Positions 37,382 to 48,886 of a stretch of 64,000 nucleotides of DNA are shown here, piece after piece. Position 1 is the first letter of the stretch. Each line of letters starts with the position of its first letter. The DNA is from a bacterium (lineage in GTDB: Bacteria; Armatimonadota; UBA5829): contig JAJFUS010000006.1 in assembly GCA_021372295.1 (NCBI GenBank), positions 1 to 64,000 of the forward strand, in the 5' to 3' direction. The notes beneath the pieces were generated by a model. The model was not told the origin of the DNA. It saw only the letters and a program-made list of their open reading frames with translations, and ran no database searches. The translations under genes were made by a program, and so were the position numbers.

Positions 37382-37739
37382 TTTCCGCTCCTTCGAGAAT
37401 AGCTGAGAGTGGAAAATGGAGAGTGGAGAGTCCAGACTCGTGAGCACTCAGTCAGCTGTGTATTTTGTGGCATCATTGTTCCAAAACGAAACGCTCAACC
37501 ACATATTTACTGCAACACACGATCTCAAATTTCCTTCCAGCGCCCAGTTGTTACCTCGCAACAATTCCTGTTCTTGCACATGCGCTCTCAAGTTGAGCCG
37601 CTAAATGACGATAATCAATGATAGGAGGCGTGCCCGTAGCGCCTTCGTGCGTCAGGAGTAGCAGGTTGAGTTTGCAATCTCTAGCCTCTTACTTCTAGCG
37701 CCTAACTTCTGAAACATCTGGAGGTCGCGGCAGCAAGTG
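37382..37739. other. Gene-free region between malic enzyme and pilM, with short tandem repeats
   Basis: This 358-base gap must contain the divergent promoters of the malic enzyme and pil genes, but I see no consensus pair. It carries two short degenerate tandem repeats, GAGAGTGGA-like units at 37401-37430 and CTCTTACTTCTAGCGCCTAA-like units at 37678-37710. No ORF in it looks real. Confidence 0.5.
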
Positions 37740-38861
37740 ATGTTAAATTCACTTTTCAGCAAAGAGACGACAGTCGGAATCGACATTGGCTCGAGCTGCA
37801 TCAAGGCAGTGGAAATCGAGCCGACCGGGCGCGGGTGGGAACTTACAAACGCGGCGGTCACGCCCACCCCCAGTGAAGCGATCAAGGAAGGCGTTATCAC
37901 AAACATTGTTGATGTCTCGCAGGAAATTCGTTCCCTCTTGAAAGAAGCGGGTATACGAGCCACCGGAGCCATCTGCGCTATTTCAGGATCCCAGGTAATA
38001 GTGCGACAGGTGCAGTTCCCGAAGATGCCCGAAGCGACTCTTCGGAAGTCGATCAAGTATGAGGCCAGCAAGCATATATCCTCCTCCATGGAAGACAGCG
38101 TGGTCGAGTTTGAAATCCTCGGAGACATGCCGGATTCCAACCAGATGAACGTCATGCTTGTTGCCGCCCCGCGCGAGATGGTGGATTCGCGGGTCAAGGT
38201 TATCGAAAGCGCCGGGCTTGAGCCTTTGATGGTGGACGTCGAAGCGTTTGCCATTATCAGGTCGCTCGTCGAGTTCAGCGCATCCGACGAATACCTACAC
38301 CGCACGGTCGCGCTCATAGACATGGGAGCCAGCCATACCGATGTCAACATCGTCAGCCGGGGCGAGTTTGCCCTGACGCGCAATATCCCCATAGCCGGCA
38401 ACAGCTTCACCAACGCGATCAAATCGCTCACCGGCGCGTCTTTCGAGGACGCCGAACGGATGAAGCTGGACATGGCAAAAGGATACCCGCTGGACCAGAT
38501 CAGCGCCATGGACGACGAAAACCGCAACTGGAAAGTCGTTCAGCCGCTTTTGGACGAACTGATCCGCGAAGTCAGGCGTTCGATCCATTTCTATCAGTCT
38601 CAGTATCCCGAAGGCAACTCCGAGACGATGGTCAGCAAGATCGTCCTCACAGGGGGCACTGCTCAAATGCCCGGAATGGATGCCTATATGTCCTCGAAGC
38701 TCAGTGTGCCCACGGCGATTTCGGAAGTGTTCAAACAAACAGCCATAAGCACAGGCCGAATCCCCGCGGAATTCGTAGCCCAGCACAGCCCATTACTGGC
38801 CGTAGGAATGGGGCTTGCTTTGAAAGACTTGATGCCCGACGCTCAAAAGGCAGCAGCCTGA
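37740..38861 (+). CDS. pilM: Type IV pilus assembly protein PilM
   Basis: An actin-like cytoplasmic ATPase that binds the N terminus of PilN in the alignment complex. The 373-residue protein opens with LFSKETTVGIDIGSSCIKAVEI (phosphate-1 loop) and has ALIDMGASHTDVNIV and KIVLTGGTAQMPGMDAYM (adenosine motif), the PilM pattern. GGAGG lies 12-15 bases before GTG(37737)/ATG(37740); either could start translation. It is the first gene of the pilMNOPQ-BTC row. Confidence 0.95.
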   Translation: MLNSLFSKETTVGIDIGSSCIKAVEIEPTGRGWELTNAAVTPTPSEAIKEGVITNIVDVSQEIRSLLKEAGIRATGAICAISGSQVIVRQVQFPKMPEATLRKSIKYEASKHISSSMEDSVVEFEILGDMPDSNQMNVMLVAAPREMVDSRVKVIESAGLEPLMVDVEAFAIIRSLVEFSASDEYLHRTVALIDMGASHTDVNIVSRGEFALTRNIPIAGNSFTNAIKSLTGASFEDAERMKLDMAKGYPLDQISAMDDENRNWKVVQPLLDELIREVRRSIHFYQSQYPEGNSETMVSKIVLTGGTAQMPGMDAYMSSKLSVPTAISEVFKQTAISTGRIPAEFVAQHSPLLAVGMGLALKDLMPDAQKAAA

Positions 38862-38995: not shown

Positions 38996-39601
38996 ATGCC
39001 TTCCATAAATATGATCGCTCCCAGACGCGCGGAAAAACAGCGTCTGGAAAGAGATATGCGAAGACTGGTTCTGGTCATTATGGCGGAACTGATCCTCGCC
39101 GTGGTTTTGGGCGGATGGGTCTGCACAAAGGCTTTTAACATGCGCGCCGAAATCCGCGGATTGGACGAGCAGATAGCCAAACTGCAGCCGGTCGTAAAAG
39201 AAATCGAGCAGTACGAGAGCGCAACCACAAAGCTCAAGCCAAAACTGGATCTTTTGGGAAATGCAAAAGATTCCACAATGCGCTGGTACAACTCGCTCGA
39301 CAGGCTCACACAGAGTCTCGCTTCCTCGACCTATCTGACCAAAATCTCAACATCGGCAGCGCAGGACAATAAAGATGAATCGACCGTTATAAACCTGTCC
39401 GGAGTCTCCAGCGCCCAGGCGCGAGTCGGAGAGACAATGCTGCGCCTGCAAACCATTCCCGATTTCGACAAGGTCGATCTCCACTACACGCAGAAGACGT
39501 CCGGCAAAGAAAGCACGGGCATCGAGTTCGAGATCGGGGCGGCGATGAAGGGCAGCGATTCGTCGAAGGAGGTGAAGAGCGATGGCGCAAATCAGTCTTA
39601 A
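38996..39601 (+). CDS. pilN: Type IV pilus inner-membrane protein PilN
   Basis: A 201-residue bitopic protein. The N-terminal INMIAPRR resembles the INLLP peptide by which PilN binds PilM. One membrane helix (LVLVIMAELILAVVLGGWV) is followed by a coiled coil (EIRGLDEQIAKLQPVVKEIEQ) and a ferredoxin-like periplasmic domain. It overlaps pilO by 20 bases. Confidence 0.9.
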   Translation: MPSINMIAPRRAEKQRLERDMRRLVLVIMAELILAVVLGGWVCTKAFNMRAEIRGLDEQIAKLQPVVKEIEQYESATTKLKPKLDLLGNAKDSTMRWYNSLDRLTQSLASSTYLTKISTSAAQDNKDESTVINLSGVSSAQARVGETMLRLQTIPDFDKVDLHYTQKTSGKESTGIEFEIGAAMKGSDSSKEVKSDGANQS

Positions 39602-40331
39602 ACCCAGCTCTAAGAGTATAACAGCGCTCATTGTGATCGCGGTCGTCATATTTTTCGGATGCGCGCTCGGATATATGGCCGCAGCCGGTAAGCTGAAAAG
39701 CTCCGCCTCCGAGATACAAGCAAAAGAAAAGAAAGTGACCGAGAGCAAGGAAATCGCTCAAAAACTGGAACAGTCCAAGCTCGATTACCTTGACGCAAGG
39801 AGCCAGATACGCTTTCTTGAGTCGTCCGTCACCACGGAGGCATACGTTCCGACGCTCTTGAAGCAACTTGAGTATCTCGGCAAGTCTGTCAATCTCAAGG
39901 TGATAGGGATTCGCCCACAGGCTGTAGAGGTTAAGGCCGCGCCGCGAAAGCTCTCCAGCGGAGCGCAGGCCGCAAACGGAAACGTCGAAGGCGCATCCGA
40001 GCAGAGCAGCAATTCGCAACCAGGCGATCAGTCGGCAAAAAAGACGGTATCTCCTTACGACGAACTCAAAGTGGAAGTCGAAGTAGAAGGCAAGTATATG
40101 AACGCTCTCGACTTCCTGTATAAACTCACCAGCTTCCCGAAGATCATCGCGGTGAACAGCGTTGAGATGAATCCCAGCGACGACAAGGGAATCGTCGGTT
40201 CGCCCATGCTGAATATCAAGATGAAAGTCACCGCGTTCGTTTTCAAGGACACGGGAGTAATCGTCGAACCAAACGTTATCACCGGCAGCAATCCGACTGC
40301 CGAAAGGAGAGACAAGAATGAAGCCGGATAA
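39582..40331 (+). CDS. pilO: Type IV pilus inner-membrane protein PilO
   Basis: A 249-residue bitopic protein that heterodimerises with PilN. It has a membrane helix (SITALIVIAVVIFFGCALGYM), a coiled coil (KSSASEIQAKEKKVTESKEIAQKLEQ region) and a PilO-type ferredoxin-like domain (LLKQLEYLGKSVNLKVIGIRP ... VEVEGKYMNALDFLYKLTSFPKII). A serine/glutamine-rich insert sits at about residues 125-155. It overlaps the next gene by 14 bases. Confidence 0.9.
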   Translation: MAQISLKPSSKSITALIVIAVVIFFGCALGYMAAAGKLKSSASEIQAKEKKVTESKEIAQKLEQSKLDYLDARSQIRFLESSVTTEAYVPTLLKQLEYLGKSVNLKVIGIRPQAVEVKAAPRKLSSGAQAANGNVEGASEQSSNSQPGDQSAKKTVSPYDELKVEVEVEGKYMNALDFLYKLTSFPKIIAVNSVEMNPSDDKGIVGSPMLNIKMKVTAFVFKDTGVIVEPNVITGSNPTAERRDKNEAG

Positions 40332-40965
40332 TAAGCAGATCCCACAGTTGATCGTGCTTGGGGTACTTGTCCTGATCTGCATCGGCTATGTGTCCTTCAA
40401 GGTCATCTCTCCCGGCGCAAAGCCGAAGGCTCCCGCTGCTCAGTCTCAGTCTGAGACGGCGCAGTCGGACGACAAGGCCGCCAGCGATGACTCCGCCGTC
40501 AAGGCCGTTACATCGCCCACAGGAATCTTCCCCGACCTGGCGTCCATGCCCGCGAGAAGAGACCCGTTCACGCCGGTCGGATCGCTCGATCAGAACGAAG
40601 AGAAGCCCGCGAAGGTCGCAGTGAAGACCGAACACACTCGCGCGAGAATTGTAAGCAATCTCAGGGCAAGAGTCCCGCGCATCGAAGCCAATCCGTTCAA
40701 CCCGTTCAGCGGATCGGGCGGAAAGTCGGTAAGCTCCGGGCAGGTTCAAGTGCAAGTGCAGGAAGAAGAACCGCTGTTCACGCTCACAGGCGTAATCAGA
40801 GGAGACAGTAACGTCGCCATCATCCGATCCGGAGAAGGCGGCCGATATATTGCAAAGCAAGGCCAGCTCATCGACGGGCGCTACAGAATTGAGTCCGTGT
40901 CTGACGACGGCGCTACGCTGGTCTACAAAAACCGTCGTATTCACGTGAAATTAGGAGGAGTTTAG
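40318..40965 (+). CDS. PilP-like periplasmic pilus protein
   Basis: A 215-residue protein with one N-terminal membrane anchor (LIVLGVLVLICIGYVSFKVI), a disordered Ser/Ala-rich linker, a motif MPARRDPFTPV and a small beta-domain at the C terminus (EEEPLFTLTGVIRGDSNVAIIRSGEGGRYI region, then VKLGGV). Position and domain fit the PilP homology-region protein that links PilNO to the secretin; canonical PilP is a lipoprotein, whereas this one looks membrane-anchored. It ends one base before pilQ. Confidence 0.8.
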   Translation: MKPDNKQIPQLIVLGVLVLICIGYVSFKVISPGAKPKAPAAQSQSETAQSDDKAASDDSAVKAVTSPTGIFPDLASMPARRDPFTPVGSLDQNEEKPAKVAVKTEHTRARIVSNLRARVPRIEANPFNPFSGSGGKSVSSGQVQVQVQEEEPLFTLTGVIRGDSNVAIIRSGEGGRYIAKQGQLIDGRYRIESVSDDGATLVYKNRRIHVKLGGV

Positions 40966-40966
40966 A

Positions 40967-43219
40967 ATGCGAGCTAACATCACCGCCTTCGTGCTGGCCC
41001 TTGTCATACTGATTTCCGGCGCAGCCGCCGCTGACAAGGCGATAACGGGAATTAACGTAGCAAACAAGTCCGACCGGGTAATAATCACGGTTCAGGGAAA
41101 TAGCGCCCTGAACATGTCGTGCCTGAAATCGGCAAAGGGGAAATTTATCGGGTTCCAGTTCCCTTGCGCGCTGACCGCCAAAGGACGGCTGGTCGGCATA
41201 CGTTCAGGCAAGATATACAACGTCAGATACTCGAACTTCAGCTCAAGGCCTGCCGCTACACGCGTAGTGGTGAACACCAACGGCCACGTGCAGTACTCAA
41301 CCGAATGGTCGGCTGATAAGAATCGAGTTGAAATCACCGTGTGGAAGAACGGCAAGCCAAAGGATAACGTGACACCCGCCGTGCAGACACAAATTCCAGA
41401 GCCTGAATCGGCTGCAATAGCGTCTATAGATCGGCCGGCCGATAATCCGCCCGCCATGCTCCGCACACAGACACTTGCACTGTACGCAAGCGCGAACACA
41501 AAAGCCATGCCAACCGCTTCCGCGAAGCCCATAGAGCCTGTGACCAGAGTCCTCGGCGAAGCGCAGGAAATCGCGCAAAAGCCCGCGGCCAAGCATATAG
41601 TGCTCGCCAGAGTCGACACTCCGACCATCGGACGACTCGCCCAGGATGTGGAAAAGAGAGTATCGCTCAACTTCCTCGGCGCAGATATCAATGACGTTTT
41701 GAAAGCGCTCTCAATGCAGAGCGGCCATAATATAGTCGCCGGTAAAGACGTCACCGGAAATGTGACCGTGAGCTTGTCTGATGTAAGCATGGATGAAGCT
41801 ATGAACTATGTCGCCAAGCTCAGCGGATACAGCTATGTGAAAAACAATAGCACCTATCTGGTGGGATCGCAGAGCACCCTCGCAGCGCTGACCAATGGTG
41901 AGCAGGACAAGCCGGTAGAGAGAGTGGTCGATGTAATTCGGTTGTATTACGCAAATGTTGATGAAACCGCAATGGTATTATCCACCGAATTTCCAGATTT
42001 GAAGTTCAGCTTGGACACAAGCAAATTCGAGTCCGACAAAAACAAGAAGACACGCGGCGGTTTTCTTATGGTCTCAGGCCCCAGCAATATAATCAAGAAA
42101 GCAAAAGCCGCGGCGTCAAACGTTGACGATGAGGTTGGAAGACTCCTCGGCGAGGTCACAGAAATATATAAGGTCAAATATGTAGATGCAGCCGAGCTCA
42201 AAGAAACCATCGAAGGCGTCTTGCCTGGGCTGATCTGTCATTTCGGGCCTGGAGATGATTTCAACCCAATTATGTCATCCACAATTGCAGGCACGTCCAT
42301 GGTCTCCCCGCTGATGCCCAACTACAAACTGATGGATCGCCAGCTTGGCCCGTTGAATGAAAACGGCGGCCTGATAAAAGAGACCAAAACTGTCGACCGT
42401 ATGACCAAGCCACAGACGATTACCATAACCGGCACAAAACCGGATGTGCAGAAAGCACTTGAACTAGCGGCTAAACTTGACGTAAGGTCGCCGCAGATCA
42501 GCATCGAAGCAAAGATCACCTGCATTACCAAAAGCGGCGCTGAACAGCTTGGCGTGGAATGGAGTTGGGACGCCATTTCGTTCCTGGAAGACGTCACAGC
42601 CCCGCTGATCGTCACCGATAAAGATCTGGATGCCGAAGTGGCGATTTCGGAGAACGTGAGCGTCGATAAGAGTCTGAAGAGGTGGTTCAGACAACCTGTC
42701 GACTTCTCCGCGACCCTCGACGCCCTGGTCACCAATGGCAATGCCACAGTGCTGGCCTCGCCGAACCTGACATGCGTGGAAGGAAAGCCGGGTAAGTTCT
42801 TTGTCGGCGATGAAGTGACTTACGTCAGTTCGGTCAGCGCATCCTCAGGCGGCGAGAAAACTTACGAAACAGACACAAAACAGGCCGGCGTGGCACTAAG
42901 TGTGATTGGAAATGTGAGTGAAGACAGTTACATAACACTCAATCTGCATCCCGAAGTCAGTTCGATCACGCTCACAACAACAGACAGCGTCACCGTTCCC
43001 ACCGTGAGCAGAAGATATACCGATCAGATCGTACGCGTAAAAAACGGATCGACTATCGCTATTGGCGGCCTCATCAGAAACGATGAGATCGAAACAATGA
43101 GCAAAATCCCGTTTTTGGGCGATCTGCCGTTCTTCGGGCAATTGTTCAGACACAAGTCCACATCCAGCGAAAAGAATGAAGTCGTGATGTTCATCACGGC
43201 GAAAATCGTAGAAGACTGA
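40967..43219 (+). CDS. pilQ: Type IV pilus secretin PilQ
   Basis: The outer-membrane secretin through which the pilus passes. The 750 residues have a signal peptide (ITAFVLALVILISGAAAA), one AMIN domain, a low-complexity linker, a STN/N0 domain (VSLNFLGADINDVLKALSMQSG), N1-type modules (VDVIRLYYANVDE; VTEIYKVKYVDAAELKETIEG) and the secretin core ending VRVKNGSTIAIGGLIRNDE and KIPFLGDLPFFGQLFRHKS, the standard secretin signature. The gene closes the alignment-complex operon, and a strong hairpin follows at 43230-43263. Confidence 0.95.
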   Translation: MRANITAFVLALVILISGAAAADKAITGINVANKSDRVIITVQGNSALNMSCLKSAKGKFIGFQFPCALTAKGRLVGIRSGKIYNVRYSNFSSRPAATRVVVNTNGHVQYSTEWSADKNRVEITVWKNGKPKDNVTPAVQTQIPEPESAAIASIDRPADNPPAMLRTQTLALYASANTKAMPTASAKPIEPVTRVLGEAQEIAQKPAAKHIVLARVDTPTIGRLAQDVEKRVSLNFLGADINDVLKALSMQSGHNIVAGKDVTGNVTVSLSDVSMDEAMNYVAKLSGYSYVKNNSTYLVGSQSTLAALTNGEQDKPVERVVDVIRLYYANVDETAMVLSTEFPDLKFSLDTSKFESDKNKKTRGGFLMVSGPSNIIKKAKAAASNVDDEVGRLLGEVTEIYKVKYVDAAELKETIEGVLPGLICHFGPGDDFNPIMSSTIAGTSMVSPLMPNYKLMDRQLGPLNENGGLIKETKTVDRMTKPQTITITGTKPDVQKALELAAKLDVRSPQISIEAKITCITKSGAEQLGVEWSWDAISFLEDVTAPLIVTDKDLDAEVAISENVSVDKSLKRWFRQPVDFSATLDALVTNGNATVLASPNLTCVEGKPGKFFVGDEVTYVSSVSASSGGEKTYETDTKQAGVALSVIGNVSEDSYITLNLHPEVSSITLTTTDSVTVPTVSRRYTDQIVRVKNGSTIAIGGLIRNDEIETMSKIPFLGDLPFFGQLFRHKSTSSEKNEVVMFITAKIVED

Positions 43220-43263: not shown

Positions 43264-43346
43264 ACTGAAATCTAATTGGACTCTTAAGCCGAGTAGACAT
43301 TCGGCCGATAACTATATCTGAGGCGTTCGCGCACTCAAAGGTACTT

Positions 43347-45077
43347 ATGCAGAAGACTGAAGCAATTGGCGAGATATTCTTAAGACTGGGAATCGTCTCG
43401 AGGCAGCAGCTCGACCAGGCCATGGACAAGCAGAAGCTCCTGAAGCGACAGGACTCGCTCGGCGACGTGCTCGTCAGTATGGGACTGATCTCGGAGAAAG
43501 ACCGTGTCAGGGCATTAGGCGAGCAGTGGGGCGTGCCTTTCGTGGACGTATCCGAGCTTGAAGTGGACAGCGCGGTCGTAAAGCTGGTGGCGCAAAGCGT
43601 TGCGCGCAAACTCAAGGTGCTGCCCGTTGCCAGGAAGAATGGCAAGCTCGCCCTTGCCATGAAGAACCCGCTGGATATCTTCGCCATTGACGAAATTCGC
43701 ATGATGACCGGCGCGGACGTGGAACCCGCGATTGCGCCCGAAGAAGACATCATCAACGCCATCGGACGACTCTACAGGGCCGGGGCGAGTTCTTCCGAGC
43801 AGTTTAACGACGTTATAAAGGAGTTCGACTCCGCCAATATAGACTTCACCGGCGGCAATCATGGAGATGAAGACGAAGACATCTCCATCGAGCAGCTTCG
43901 GGAACTCTCTGAAGAGGCCCCGGTCATAAAGCTGGCCAACATGATTATCAGCCGGGGAGTCAGCGACGGAGCAAGCGATATTCACATAGAGCCAGGCAAA
44001 GACGGCGTGCGAGTCCGCCTGAGAATAGACGGTCTTCTGCACGAGGTAATGCAAGTTCCAAAGAAAGTCCAGGCGTCGCTGACGTCCCGTTTCAAGATCA
44101 TGGCCGAGATGGACATCGCCACCAAGCGAACTCCGCAGGACGGCAGAATCTCGGCGGTAATCGACAACAGGCAGTTCGACTTTCGTGTATCCACTCTGCC
44201 GTCGGTATTCGGTGAGAAGATCGTTCTGAGAATTCTGGACAAGAGCTCGATATCCATCGGGCTTCACAAACTTGGCCTGCTGCCGGAGACACTCGAACGG
44301 TTCGAAAGCCTGATCTCCCGCACATACGGGATCATACTGGTCACGGGACCGACAGGCAGCGGCAAGTCGACGACGCTTTACTCGGTTCTTTCAAAACTCA
44401 ACTCGGGCGAAAAAAACATTCTGACTATCGAAGACCCGGTCGAATACGAAGTCGCGGGTCTTACGCAGGTTCAGATCAACACCCGAGCCGGCCTGACGTT
44501 CGCGTCGGGCCTCAGAACCATGCTCAGGCAGGACCCGGATATAGCGATGATCGGTGAAATTCGAGACGCCGAGACCGCGACAATCGCCACCGAGGCGGCT
44601 TTAACGGGTCACCTTGTGCTATCGACCCTGCACACAAACGACGCGCCTGGCGCGCTGACTCGAATGGTCGATATGGGGATCGAGCCATTCCTGATCGCAT
44701 CGAGCGTAATCGGTGTATTGGCGCAGAGGCTTGTGCGAGTGGTCTGCCCGAAGTGTAAAGAACAATATCAACCGCCGCGCGACGCGATCAAGCGGCTGGG
44801 AATAGATGTCGATGGCGACACCAGAGTGAGTTTTTATCGAGGCAAAGGCTGCGACCACTGCCGCGGCAATGGATACAAGGGCAGGCTCGGAGTCTACGAA
44901 CTGATGCTGGTCAACGACCGCGTCCGCGACCTGGTGCTGCAAAAATCGTCTGCGCACCTAATACGCGAAGCGGCAATCGAAACAGGAATGAAGAGTCTGA
45001 AAGACGACGCCATAGCAAAGATTTTGCTGGGACAAACGACACTTGAGGAATGCCTGCGGGTCATATACGCGGGTTAG
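43347..45077 (+). CDS. pilB: Type IV pilus extension ATPase PilB
   Basis: A hexameric secretion ATPase that powers pilus extension at the inner membrane. The 576 residues have an N-terminal MshEN-type region (EAIGEIFLRLGIVSRQQLDQAM ... ALGEQWGVPFVDVSELEVD), Walker A GPTGSGKSTTLY, Asp box IEDPVEYE, Walker B MIGEIRDAETA, His box LVLSTLHTNDAPG, and the tetracysteine zinc motif CPKCKEQ...CDHCRGNGYKGR that distinguishes PilB from PilT. MshEN domains bind c-di-GMP in several PilB/MshE proteins, which is relevant to the sigma-GGDEF gene downstream. Confidence 0.96.
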   Translation: MQKTEAIGEIFLRLGIVSRQQLDQAMDKQKLLKRQDSLGDVLVSMGLISEKDRVRALGEQWGVPFVDVSELEVDSAVVKLVAQSVARKLKVLPVARKNGKLALAMKNPLDIFAIDEIRMMTGADVEPAIAPEEDIINAIGRLYRAGASSSEQFNDVIKEFDSANIDFTGGNHGDEDEDISIEQLRELSEEAPVIKLANMIISRGVSDGASDIHIEPGKDGVRVRLRIDGLLHEVMQVPKKVQASLTSRFKIMAEMDIATKRTPQDGRISAVIDNRQFDFRVSTLPSVFGEKIVLRILDKSSISIGLHKLGLLPETLERFESLISRTYGIILVTGPTGSGKSTTLYSVLSKLNSGEKNILTIEDPVEYEVAGLTQVQINTRAGLTFASGLRTMLRQDPDIAMIGEIRDAETATIATEAALTGHLVLSTLHTNDAPGALTRMVDMGIEPFLIASSVIGVLAQRLVRVVCPKCKEQYQPPRDAIKRLGIDVDGDTRVSFYRGKGCDHCRGNGYKGRLGVYELMLVNDRVRDLVLQKSSAHLIREAAIETGMKSLKDDAIAKILLGQTTLEECLRVIYAG

Positions 45078-45094
45078 AAGTCGGAGGCACAGAG

Positions 45095-46231
45095 TTGGAA
45101 GCTCGGCTGGATTCAAATTTTGACGACGAGATAATCGAGGCATCGGGCGAATCGAGTGTCAAGTCGATTGAGGACTTGCACCTCGACGACCTGCTGCGCG
45201 AGGTAGGTGAGCGTGGAGCGTCCGACCTGCACCTTGCGGTCGGCCTGCCGCCGATGCTGCGCGTGGACGGTTCGCTCAACCGCACCAACTATCGTCCGTT
45301 GGGGCCGAATGACACTCAGCGGATCGTTTACGATATACTGACCAACGACCAGGTCGAAAAGTTCGAGCGAACAAAAGAACTCGACTTTTCTTATGGCGTG
45401 AAGGGCATCGGCAGGTACCGTGTCAACGTCTACAGGCAGCGCGGCAGTGTCGGCGCGGCCTTGAGAGCTATTCCAGACCAGGTTCCGACATTCGAGCAGC
45501 TCGGGCTTCCACCAGTGCTTCGTGAACTGTGTAAGAAACACAGTGGACTGATCCTGGTCACCGGCCCGACCGGCAGCGGCAAGTCCACCACAATAGCGTG
45601 TATGATCGACACAATCAACAGCGATAAGCCTCTGCACATAATGACGATGGAAGACCCAATAGAGTATCTCCATCGACACAAGAGATGCATGGTCAATCAG
45701 CGCGAACTGGGCCAAGACACCGACGCCTTCAGCAACGCATTACGGGCTGTCCTAAGAGAAGACCCTGACGTGATTCTCATCGGAGAGATGCGCGACCTGG
45801 AAACCATATCCGCCGCGCTCACTCTCGCCGAGACCGGCCACCTTGTGTTCGGCACGCTCCACACCAGATGCGCGCCGCAAACTATCGACCGCGTGGTGGA
45901 CGTCTTTCCACCGCACCAGCAGGATCAGATCAGAGTGCAGCTTTCCAATACCATCGAAGCGGTAGTCGCTCAGCAGCTCCTGCCGCGAAACGGCGGAGGC
46001 AGATGCGCCGCCATCGAGATCATGGTCGCCACCTCGGCCATCAGAAACCTGATCCGGGAAGGCAAGACCTATCAGATATACAGCTCGCTGGAAACGGGCG
46101 CGCAGTTCGGCATGCAGACTATGGACAGACAGCTCTCCGAAATGCAGCGGATGGGCTATATAACTCAGGAAGAGGCGCTTGCCCGCGCAATTGACAGAGA
46201 AAACGTGAAAAGGCTGCTCCAGGGGGGTTAA
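45095..46231 (+). CDS. pilT: Type IV pilus retraction ATPase PilT
   Basis: A retraction motor of about 378 residues. It has HLDDLLREVGERGASDLHLAVG at the N terminus, Walker A VTGPTGSGKSTTIA, MEDPIEYLH, Walker B ILIGEMRDLETI, GHLVFGTLHT and no zinc-binding tetracysteine, all pointing to PilT. The start is probably TTG at 45095 with GGAGG eight bases upstream; an ATG at 45050 inside pilB has its Shine-Dalgarno too close. The AIRNLIREGK segment matches the PilT AIRNLIRE motif needed for retraction. Confidence 0.95.
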   Translation: MEARLDSNFDDEIIEASGESSVKSIEDLHLDDLLREVGERGASDLHLAVGLPPMLRVDGSLNRTNYRPLGPNDTQRIVYDILTNDQVEKFERTKELDFSYGVKGIGRYRVNVYRQRGSVGAALRAIPDQVPTFEQLGLPPVLRELCKKHSGLILVTGPTGSGKSTTIACMIDTINSDKPLHIMTMEDPIEYLHRHKRCMVNQRELGQDTDAFSNALRAVLREDPDVILIGEMRDLETISAALTLAETGHLVFGTLHTRCAPQTIDRVVDVFPPHQQDQIRVQLSNTIEAVVAQQLLPRNGGGRCAAIEIMVATSAIRNLIREGKTYQIYSSLETGAQFGMQTMDRQLSEMQRMGYITQEEALARAIDRENVKRLLQGG

Positions 46232-46237
46232 AGCAAT

Positions 46238-47452
46238 ATGTCAACCTTTGTTTATACGGCGCTGGACCCAAGCGGTAAGACCGTCAAGGGCAAAGTGGAT
46301 GCCGAGAGCGAGCAGTTGGTGCTCTCCAAGCTCCACGAACAAAGATACCATATACTTTCGGTGACGCAGGAGAAATCACGCACCGCCAAGCCGACGACGT
46401 CCACGCCGTCGAATAAAAAAGTCAAACTCAATGACATGGTCATATTCAGCCGGCAGTTCGCAACTATGATCGACGCCGGCATAGCCATAGTCCGATGTCT
46501 GGACATTCTGGAAAGTCAAACGAAAGACCCAGTCCTGAAGCCTGTCATCGCGCAGTGCAAGAAAGACGTCAAGGGCGGCTTAAGCCTTACCGACGCATTC
46601 AGCAAACACCCTGGCGTGTTCTCGCGACTGTATGTAAACATGGTCAAGGCGGCGGAAACCGGCGGTATTCTCGATAAAATACTGGAAAGACTTTCAGGGT
46701 TCCTGGAAAGCGAGCAGGAGATTCGCGGCAAGATCAAATCGGCTATGATTTACCCAATCCTGGTCTTGAGTTTCGCGGTGATTATGATTATCGCGCTGTT
46801 TCTATTCGTTTTGCCCAAATTCAAAGAGATATTCGATTCTATGGGCGTAGAAATGCCGGGCGCCACCAAGTTTTTGTTCAGCGCCAGCGACTTGGCGGTG
46901 AAGTTCTGGTATGTTGGTCCGATCCTGGCGGTCGGCGGATTCTTTGCCTACAAGTGGTACAGCAAAACCGACAGCGGCGCCTGGCAAATCGACACCATGA
47001 AACTGAAGTTTCCTGTTATCGGCGAACTGGTGCAGAAGATGGCGATCTCCAGATTCTCGCGAACATTCGCCACTCTCATCGCCAGCGGTGTACCTATGAT
47101 GAGGTCGCTGGAGATAGTCGGAGAAACATCGGGCAATCGCGTCATTGCACACGCAATCGAGAGCGCTCGCAACGCCATCCGCGAGGGGCAGAAGATTAGC
47201 GCTCCACTTGCGGCCAGCGGACTTTTCCCAACTATGGTCACACACATGATCGACATCGGCGAAGAGACCGGCCGGCTCTCCGAAATGCTTGCCAAGGTCT
47301 CGGACTTCTACGATCAGGAGGTCGACAACGCCGTGAAGGGGCTCACCTCTATGATCGAGCCTCTTCTGATAGTCGTGATGGGCGGATTGGTAGGTTTCAT
47401 CGCCGTATCCATCATGGCTCCTATATTCAAGCTGATCAGCTCAGTGGGGTAA
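46238..47452 (+). CDS. pilC: Type IV pilus inner-membrane platform protein PilC
   Basis: A polytopic GspF/PilC-family platform protein (404 aa) on which the ATPases act. It contains two T2SF domains: one with DMVIFSRQFATMIDAGIAIVRCLDIL, VFSRLYVNMVKAAETGGILDKIL and the membrane helix AMIYPILVLSFAVIMIIALFLFVLP, and a second with ISRFSRTFATLIASGVPMMRSLEIV and THMIDIGEETGRL, ending in a membrane helix. It starts 6 bases after pilT. No pilin gene follows, so the pilins are elsewhere. Confidence 0.95.
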   Translation: MSTFVYTALDPSGKTVKGKVDAESEQLVLSKLHEQRYHILSVTQEKSRTAKPTTSTPSNKKVKLNDMVIFSRQFATMIDAGIAIVRCLDILESQTKDPVLKPVIAQCKKDVKGGLSLTDAFSKHPGVFSRLYVNMVKAAETGGILDKILERLSGFLESEQEIRGKIKSAMIYPILVLSFAVIMIIALFLFVLPKFKEIFDSMGVEMPGATKFLFSASDLAVKFWYVGPILAVGGFFAYKWYSKTDSGAWQIDTMKLKFPVIGELVQKMAISRFSRTFATLIASGVPMMRSLEIVGETSGNRVIAHAIESARNAIREGQKISAPLAASGLFPTMVTHMIDIGEETGRLSEMLAKVSDFYDQEVDNAVKGLTSMIEPLLIVVMGGLVGFIAVSIMAPIFKLISSVG

Positions 47453-47542: not shown

Positions 47543-48886
47543 ATGCGGATGGGAAGTGTCCGAAAACTTAGTGAAGATGAAATCCAGGATCGCCTGACTC
47601 AGTATGCCCAGCATCCTGAACCCATTGTCAGGGACGAGATAGTCCTCCAGTACGCCAACCTGGTCGAGAGCATTGGCCGCAGGTTCATGGGAGCATGCGA
47701 GCCTCTGGAAGACCTTGTCCAGGAAGGCTACGTCGGGCTGATTACGTCTGTAGACAAATACGACGGCGATAAGGGAGTAAAGTTTTCGACTTACGCCACG
47801 CATTTCATAGTCGGTCAAATAAAGCACTATCTGCGCGACAAGGGCAAGATCATCAAAGAGCCGGCATGGCTTCAGGAACTCAACCAGAAGATGACCCGAG
47901 TGATCGAGGCCTTAAACCAGCAACACAACCGCCAGCCCAGCGAAAAGGAAATTGCGGAAGTGATGCAGATGCCGGAAAGCACCGTGCGGGAAATGCTCAC
48001 AACGCGCGAGGTCTTCAAAGTGACTTCTCTCGACGGCGATAAAGACGAAGGCTCCGGCCCAAGGGAAGAAGAGAAAATCTCAGACCAGAAAGTGGTCTCG
48101 TTCCAACTTCCCCTAGAGGATAAGATCGTCCTCGAGGCAGCGCTCGATCGCCTGAAGGACATCGAGCAGCAGGTGATAGCCGACCACTTCTATAAAGGTC
48201 TAAACCAGACCGAAATCGCAAAAAAACTGGGCATAAGCTGCAATTATGTCTCGCATATACTGCGTAATGGCACGAAAAAACTCAGAAAAATTCTGGCCAC
48301 CGACGAGATCCGCGATGCGCAGATGCAGCGAACTCACGTCTCCAAGCGCTCAAAACCCAGGGACAACGCAGTCGAGTCTATGAGCGTGCTGGATTCCAAT
48401 ACCGGCCTCTACAATAGAGGGTATTTCATGGAGCGGCTCGATGAGGAAATAAGCCGGGCATATCGCAGCAATCACAAGCTGTCGATCCTGCTTGTGGACA
48501 TACAGCTTCCCAGCGATCTGGACAGCTATATTCGCATGGTCAGGATGGACGACTACCTTTACAACGTAGCCCAGTCCATACGTGTGCAGGTTCGCAAAAT
48601 GGATCTGGTCGCGCGGTTCGGAGAAACATCGTTCGCACTTCTGCTTCCACACATAGCAACCAATGCGCAGCACGTCGCGGACAGGGTGGCTTCAATCACC
48701 GCGTCGGTGGAAATGGACTCCGGTCGAAAGCAAAAGGTCAGCGGCACGGCGAATATCGGCATTGCCAAATATCCCGCGGACGCCTTCACCGCCAAAGACA
48801 TGCTCGAAAAAGCAGCCGAGAACCTGGGCGTTCCACTGGAACAGCTAATGCGCGAGAGCAACTCGCAGATGAAAAAGGCAGCATAG
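47543..48886 (+). CDS. Sigma factor (SigB/WhiG-FliA-like) fused to a degenerate GGDEF domain
   Basis: A 447-residue fusion. Residues 25-100 are sigma region 2 (EPLEDLVQEGYVGLITSVDKY, then VKFSTYATHFIVGQIKHYLRDK). Residues 106-165 are region 3. Residues 190-252 are region 4 with the helix-turn-helix LNQTEIAKKLGISCNYVSHIL. This is a group 3 sigma factor of the SigB/SigF/WhiG type. After a basic linker (255-280) comes a GGDEF fold, 284-437: LDSNTGLYNRGYFMERLDEE, LSILLVDI, then RKMD (351-354), LVARF and GETSF (360-364) where RxxD, five residues and GGDEF are expected. The catalytic signature is lost but the RxxD inhibitory-site motif is kept. The gene follows pilC by about 90 bases. I infer a c-di-GMP-responsive sigma factor, perhaps for pilus or surface genes. 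There is no anti-sigma gene beside it. Confidence 0.88.
   Translation: MRMGSVRKLSEDEIQDRLTQYAQHPEPIVRDEIVLQYANLVESIGRRFMGACEPLEDLVQEGYVGLITSVDKYDGDKGVKFSTYATHFIVGQIKHYLRDKGKIIKEPAWLQELNQKMTRVIEALNQQHNRQPSEKEIAEVMQMPESTVREMLTTREVFKVTSLDGDKDEGSGPREEEKISDQKVVSFQLPLEDKIVLEAALDRLKDIEQQVIADHFYKGLNQTEIAKKLGISCNYVSHILRNGTKKLRKILATDEIRDAQMQRTHVSKRSKPRDNAVESMSVLDSNTGLYNRGYFMERLDEEISRAYRSNHKLSILLVDIQLPSDLDSYIRMVRMDDYLYNVAQSIRVQVRKMDLVARFGETSFALLLPHIATNAQHVADRVASITASVEMDSGRKQKVSGTANIGIAKYPADAFTAKDMLEKAAENLGVPLEQLMRESNSQMKKAA

Follow-up and report, generated by a model that had tools for sequence, protein, structure and literature searches.

A sigma factor fused to a GGDEF domain closes a type IV pilus operon

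The window, by which we mean the whole 64,000-nucleotide stretch of Armatimonadota DNA that was analyzed, carries a type IV pilus operon with the gene order pilM-pilN-pilO-pilP-position ORF-pilQ-pilB-pilT-pilC-fusion. The last gene encodes a sigma factor joined to a GGDEF domain; its membership of the pilus cluster had been missed in the preliminary description of the locus.

37737..38861, + strand: pilM (Pfam PilM_2, 211.7 bits)
38996..39601, + strand: pilN (Pfam PilN)
39582..40331, + strand: pilO (Pfam PilO)
40318..40965, + strand: ORF at the pilP position (no Pfam match)
40967..43219, + strand: pilQ secretin (Pfam Secretin, 148.1 bits)
43347..45077, + strand: pilB extension ATPase with an N-terminal MshEN domain (Pfam T2SSE and MshEN)
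45050..46231, + strand: pilT retraction ATPase (Pfam T2SSE)
46238..47452, + strand: pilC (Pfam T2SSF), directly upstream of the fusion gene with a 90-base gap
47543..48886, + strand: sigma factor-GGDEF fusion gene, 447 aa (open frame; fusion kept in ~190 Armatimonadota genomes)

A GTGAGG ribosome-binding site precedes the ATG of the fusion gene. The encoded protein contains sigma-70 regions 2, 3, and 4, a linker, and a C-terminal GGDEF-fold domain, and all of its Pfam matches exceed the gathering scores.

47642..47848, + strand: sigma-70 region 2, residues 34-102 (Pfam PF04542, 61.5 bits)
47876..48034, + strand: sigma-70 region 3, residues 112-164 (Pfam PF04539, 42.7 bits)
48140..48289, + strand: sigma-70 region 4, residues 200-249 (Pfam PF04545, 61.2 bits)
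48299..48385, + strand: linker, residues 253-281, with little conservation; it opens with the end of a long predicted helix (233-269)
48386..48826, + strand: GGDEF-fold domain, residues 282-428 (Pfam PF00990, 79.2 bits against a cut-off of 23.8; AlphaFold2 and Foldseek)

The preliminary description had placed sigma regions and a complete GGDEF fold in one uninterrupted frame. Both points were borne out: the Pfam domains lie within a single 447-aa ORF, and modeling of the full protein with AlphaFold2 on a 110-row alignment gave a confident fold, with a mean pLDDT of 84 and values of ~87-98 in most blocks of the GGDEF part. A Foldseek search against the PDB retrieved GGDEF structures (4urg_A, TM 0.81 over target, 2.7 Å), and sigma factors matched separately. 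In the model, helix 233-269 runs from region 4 into the linker; with a pTM of 0.48, the relative placement of the sigma and GGDEF halves is not given by the model.

We read the sigma part as that of a group-3 (SigF-like) sigma factor, nearer to SigB/F/G than to FliA/WhiG. The nearest NCBIfam models were SigB/F/G (TIGR02980, 175 bits against a curated cut-off of 234.35) and cyanobacterial SigF (PRK07408, 169.7 bits, under the curated cut-off of 261); the FliA/WhiG model (TIGR02479) gave 115.3 bits against a curated cut-off of 189.6. Since the SigB/F/G and SigF scores fall below their curated cut-offs, the sigma part is a separate branch. The recognition-helix residues of region 4 (S232 and N234-H238) were kept in at least 90% of fusions.

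The fused domain has a dead active site and invariant I-site residues

We aligned 110 distinct fusions, 33-85% identical to the window protein. The control set comprised 70 GGDEF domains taken from this same set of genomes, almost all of them with the motif intact. Residues of the c-di-GMP inhibitory site (I-site) were mapped by a profile match to full-length PleD (9g85_A, 288-442); the pairing of R305/R351/D354 with PleD R313/R359/D362 assumes no gap before them, and that of R381 with R390 takes in one inserted residue.

48455..48457, + strand: R305, equivalent to PleD R313, the I-site arginine given by the partner protomer (110/110 fusions, 35/70 controls)
48593..48604, + strand: RKMD (R351, D354), equivalent to PleD R359 and D362, the primary I-site (R and D in 110/110 fusions)
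48620..48634, + strand: GETSF, residues 360-364, in the GG(D/E)EF position (GG[DE]EF in 0/110 fusions)
48683..48685, + strand: R381, equivalent to PleD R390, the third I-site residue of the same protomer (108/110 fusions)

As the preliminary description had noted, GETSF (360-364) replaces GG(D/E)EF in the window protein and RKMD (351-354) stands five residues before it. GG[DE]EF is found in none of the aligned fusions, and only 17/110 still have Asp at D319, the position of the first metal aspartate (the metal Asp is present in 70/70 controls). Neither the metal aspartates nor GG(D/E)EF nor the conserved lysine, asparagine, and histidine positions hold up across the fusions: each is either lost or scattered. 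The proposed loss of cyclase activity thus holds by sequence. Two fusions of family f44 (L106 and L194) have a more cyclase-like active-site region, with DIDDLGAINDTHGFAQGDRL and GGGTF, which would fit an origin of the fused domain as an ordinary cyclase.

Retention of RxxD alongside loss of GGDEF among homologues had been set beforehand as a test of the receptor reading. By sequence that reading stood, with R351 and D354 in 110/110 fusions and GG(D/E)EF in 0/110. Beyond the RxxD motif considered earlier, the I-site arginines R305 and R381 are kept too. Exactly four positions of the C-domain are invariant (E302, R305, R351, and D354), and three of these four are I-site residues (hypergeometric 3e-5, relatedness ignored). 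RxxD is also common among the active-looking GGDEF domains of the lineage (R at the R351 position in 59/70 controls, D at the D354 position in 63/70), so its conservation may be partly ancestral or structural; R at the R381 position occurs in 54/70 controls. By comparison, R at the R305 position rises from 35/70 controls to 110/110 fusions (p ~5e-18, not corrected for relatedness). We therefore take RxxD alone as a modest signal, and R305 with the whole residue set as a strong one.

E301 and E302 are likewise much more conserved in fusions than in controls. In the most eroded lineage, f6, two proteins (L186, L189) keep R..D and another (L190) is without the R. The secondary-site arginine may sit elsewhere in a GGDEF domain, as with R163 in DgcR (PMC8041772), and R305 would thus be one of two known solutions. 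Judged by its residues, the C-domain is quite likely to bind c-di-GMP.

Other GGDEF proteins also depart from the usual pattern. A degenerate GGDEF protein with S[SA]TRL in place of GGDEF and an RDYD I-site (L161, L163; G242:C2:304200-305500 and G244:C3:5800-6900) is encoded near a gene for an intact-motif GGDEF protein in both genomes. Proteins L160, L162, and L164 keep the GGDEF motif intact but contain an insertion and lack RxxD at the I-site; they are apparently one conserved family in the class.

The fusion has a single origin and is widespread in the Armatimonadota

In a phylum-wide search all 291 Armatimonadota genomes gave a match, and the scores were bimodal. About 190 of the 291, counted by hand from the search tables, have the full fusion (E usually <1e-90, profile A1), and the others have sigma-like matches only. 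Uninterrupted fusions occur in independent assemblies, some of them single-contig. A frameshift joining two genes, which the preliminary description had named as grounds for abandoning its reading, is ruled out by the ~190 genomes that carry the fusion. In one genome, G274 (L194/L214), the fusion gene is read in two frames.

We built a tree of the sigma part from 136 rows, 115 of them fusions. The 115 fusions form one clade (SH-aLRT 97), within which the sigma-only proteins of family f17 (L191, L193) are nested as sister to a fusion. These proteins end in a short basic tail and have no GGDEF domain; we take it that f17, whose genomes encode only one or two GGDEF proteins, lost the sensor secondarily. 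Among the sigma-only proteins, those of f17 are the only true orthologues of the fusion. The sigma-only matches L195-L210 and L213 had been considered as orthologues minus the domain and were rejected, as the tree places them in a separate paralogue group. The simplest history would be a single early fusion in the phylum, with the GGDEF part lost later in f17. The lineages of the tree track genome families, so inheritance of the fusion looks mainly vertical.

The fusion gene was missing from 15/15 genomes without any GGDEF match; in these genomes the absence of the domain holds by definition, but that of the sigma half does not. Three genomes (G080, G187, G249) have many GGDEF proteins yet no fusion. 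Evidence on occurrence outside the Armatimonadota comes from one pattern-limited contig scan and from plasmids. The contig scan returned three further full-length fusions and one sigma-only match; two of the fusions come from contigs named Armatimonadetes and the third, with a protein 79% identical, from a contig labeled bacterium. In the plasmid search, 0/602 matching records covered 80% of the fusion protein.

The fusion is linked to pilus genes and lies downstream of a WhiG-type promoter-like site

Enough flanking sequence was available for 105 loci, and in 77 of them the fusion is immediately preceded by pilC on the same strand. A secretin-like gene takes this place in two loci (L090, L095), and in families f12, f13, f14, and f24 the fusion gene does not adjoin pilC. 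Of the 20 species in genus g73, 11 carry the fusion, and their PilM matches have E<=2.3e-44; in the 9 that lack it, E>=5e-38. Here pilM and the fusion are far apart or on different contigs (in G088, at 0.21 versus 2.08 Mb of one contig), and we reason from the PilM pattern that in this genus the fusion comes and goes together with the pilus machine.

The MshEN domain of PilB lies at 43527-43787 of the window (Pfam, 82.9 bits). MshEN is a c-di-GMP-binding family; with such a domain in the same operon, c-di-GMP may exert two levels of control over the pilus. We also observed an apparently large set of type IV pilin/pseudopilin N-methylation motifs, at 19-55 per genome, in five genomes (G000, G232, G235, G242, G244).

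Two promoter-like sites of the sigma-28 (FliA/WhiG) type were found in the operon.

37588..37614, + strand: sigma-28 (FliA/WhiG)-type promoter-like site TCAAGTT-N12-GACGATAA before pilM, present in most same-family relatives
43285..43311, + strand: second candidate sigma-28-type site, between pilQ and pilB, 1 mismatch

The site before pilM is the sole strict-pattern match in the 2.65 Mb genome, and its position is kept in relatives (L216-L226). The candidate between pilQ and pilB has a similar counterpart in L236 and L237 only and is otherwise not conserved. The genome encodes two true FliA/WhiG sigma factors (248.2 and 233.2 bits; TIGR02479 cut-off 189.6) and one true SigB/F/G sigma factor (284.8 bits; TIGR02980 cut-off 234.35). 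The pilM site was at one point taken for the fusion's own target, an idea that we dropped because of the two true FliA/WhiG sigma factors; given these and a FliA/WhiG-type pilus promoter, transcription of the pilus operon does not have to depend on the fusion. The pilM promoter may be read by the true FliA/WhiG sigma factors. Its conservation in the family, together with its uniqueness in the genome by the strict pattern, suggests that the pilus operon in Armatimonadota is controlled by a WhiG-like sigma factor.

We found nothing conserved as a fusion promoter between pilC and the fusion gene. Nor was any shared promoter motif conserved before the pilins, including the cyanobacterial SigF pattern. 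Whether type IV pilus genes are direct targets of the fusion is close to evenly balanced, and we lean slightly against it.

A proposed c-di-GMP switch in cis, and its alternatives

We infer that c-di-GMP gates this sigma factor in cis by acting on the fused C-terminal domain, with an output probably tied to type IV pili, and we consider this reading probable. The GGDEF domain would have lost catalysis and been retained as a c-di-GMP receptor. As in product-inhibited PleD, one protomer would grip a c-di-GMP dimer with R351, D354, and R381 while a second protomer contributes R305, and this cross-link would probably dimerize the sigma factor or else re-orient the region 4-linker helix. Either change would alter how the sigma factor engages RNA polymerase. 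If the fusion behaves like WhiG of Rubrobacter and Streptomyces, as we think most likely, high c-di-GMP would keep it inactive. The fusion perhaps acts one step below the FliA/WhiG-type sigma factor that would read the pilus operon, in a cascade from a WhiG-like sigma factor to the pilus operon, to the fusion sigma factor, and on to further genes. We incline, by a little, to a broader proposal: that the fusions are a phylum-wide class of sigma factors in which c-di-GMP cross-links dead GGDEF domains and switches promoter recognition without an anti-sigma factor, pili being the ancestral output.

The same residues could have been kept by a degenerate GGDEF domain that does not bind c-di-GMP and serves as a dimerization or docking module, with Arg and Asp needed for the fold or for partner contacts. 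The main point for such a module is that E301 and E302, which are not known ligand residues, are also conserved in the fusions; R298, E302, and R305 lie on one helix that could be a protein interface, and RxxD is common in local GGDEF domains anyway (59/70 and 63/70 at the R351 and D354 positions). We nonetheless regard docking as unlikely, since it leaves unexplained both why the four PleD I-site residues are together almost the sole invariants and why R305 rises from 50% of controls to 100% of fusions. Alternatively, c-di-GMP might be bound without direct gating, the sigma factor being tethered to a cyclase or to the pilus machine and its release or localization regulated. GGDEF domains can be cross-linked via I-site c-di-GMP (PMC8041772), from which a cyclase partner would be an extrapolation, and PilB of the same operon has its MshEN domain. 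However, nothing in the sequence names a partner, and tethering does not require a phylum-wide covalent fusion; we find this reading improbable.

An active diguanylate cyclase, with the sigma part as its partner or anchor, can claim that Pfam names the domain GGDEF at 79 bits, but the loss or scattering of the catalytic-site positions and of GG(D/E)EF contradicts it, leaving it hardly credible. As for an assembly frameshift or chimera of a sigma gene and a GGDEF gene, nothing in the window speaks for it and the gene is split in one relative (G274); the uninterrupted fusion in ~190 independent assemblies, including single-contig genomes, refutes it.

If c-di-GMP does gate the sigma factor in cis, this single protein would provide the shortest path by which a second messenger changes RNA polymerase specificity. 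The family also records the fate of a dead GGDEF domain, with catalysis lost in 110/110 aligned homologues and the primary inhibitory site kept in 110/110. As a soluble protein, the fusion lends itself to in vitro transcription assays that compare the presence and absence of c-di-GMP, and it is possibly a portable c-di-GMP-controlled sigma factor. The preliminary description knew of no comparable sigma-GGDEF fusion, and we likewise found none described in the open-access literature, nor any c-di-GMP work in Armatimonadota there. The parts, a sigma factor and a degenerate GGDEF receptor, are known; what appears new is that they are joined and arranged in cis.

Comparison with known systems

The closest known system is RsiG-WhiG, which a 2021 description called the only sigma/anti-sigma complex known to be a c-di-GMP target; in Rubrobacter it controls type IV pili (PMC8325347), a point absent from the preliminary description. 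It resembles the fusion in bringing together c-di-GMP and a group-3 sigma factor, control by c-di-GMP being what we propose for the fusion. The Rubrobacter WhiG pilus promoters are of the TAAA/GCCGATAA type, the same as the site before pilM here (PMC8325347). RsiG, however, is a separate coiled-coil anti-sigma factor with its own c-di-GMP motif, whereas the fusion carries a GGDEF-derived receptor on the sigma factor itself. The fusion seems to have reached a type IV pilus output independently of RsiG-WhiG.

Degenerate GGDEF receptors (PelD and similar) share with the fusion a GGDEF fold and a dead active site, and the I-sites of PleD, WspR, and DgcR share with it RxxD and two more arginines. 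The known GGDEF receptors and I-sites regulate exopolysaccharide export, cyclase activity, and other processes, whereas the domain described here is joined to a sigma factor of RNA polymerase.

Cyanobacterial SigF drives pilA, which encodes the major pilin of type IV pili, and in Nostoc it is part of a cascade from SigJ to SigF to pilA (PMC6495340). The cascade that we propose, from a WhiG-like sigma factor to the pilus operon and the fusion, would resemble it. The cyanobacterial SigF model describes a sigma factor of 258 aa that has no GGDEF domain, whereas the fusion carries one. The ECF41 and ECF42 sigma factors are regulated in cis by a fused domain that follows region 4; to our knowledge, these extensions are not second-messenger receptors. 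ECF41 and ECF42 belong to a different class of sigma factor from the fusion, but both arrangements place a C-terminal domain after region 4.
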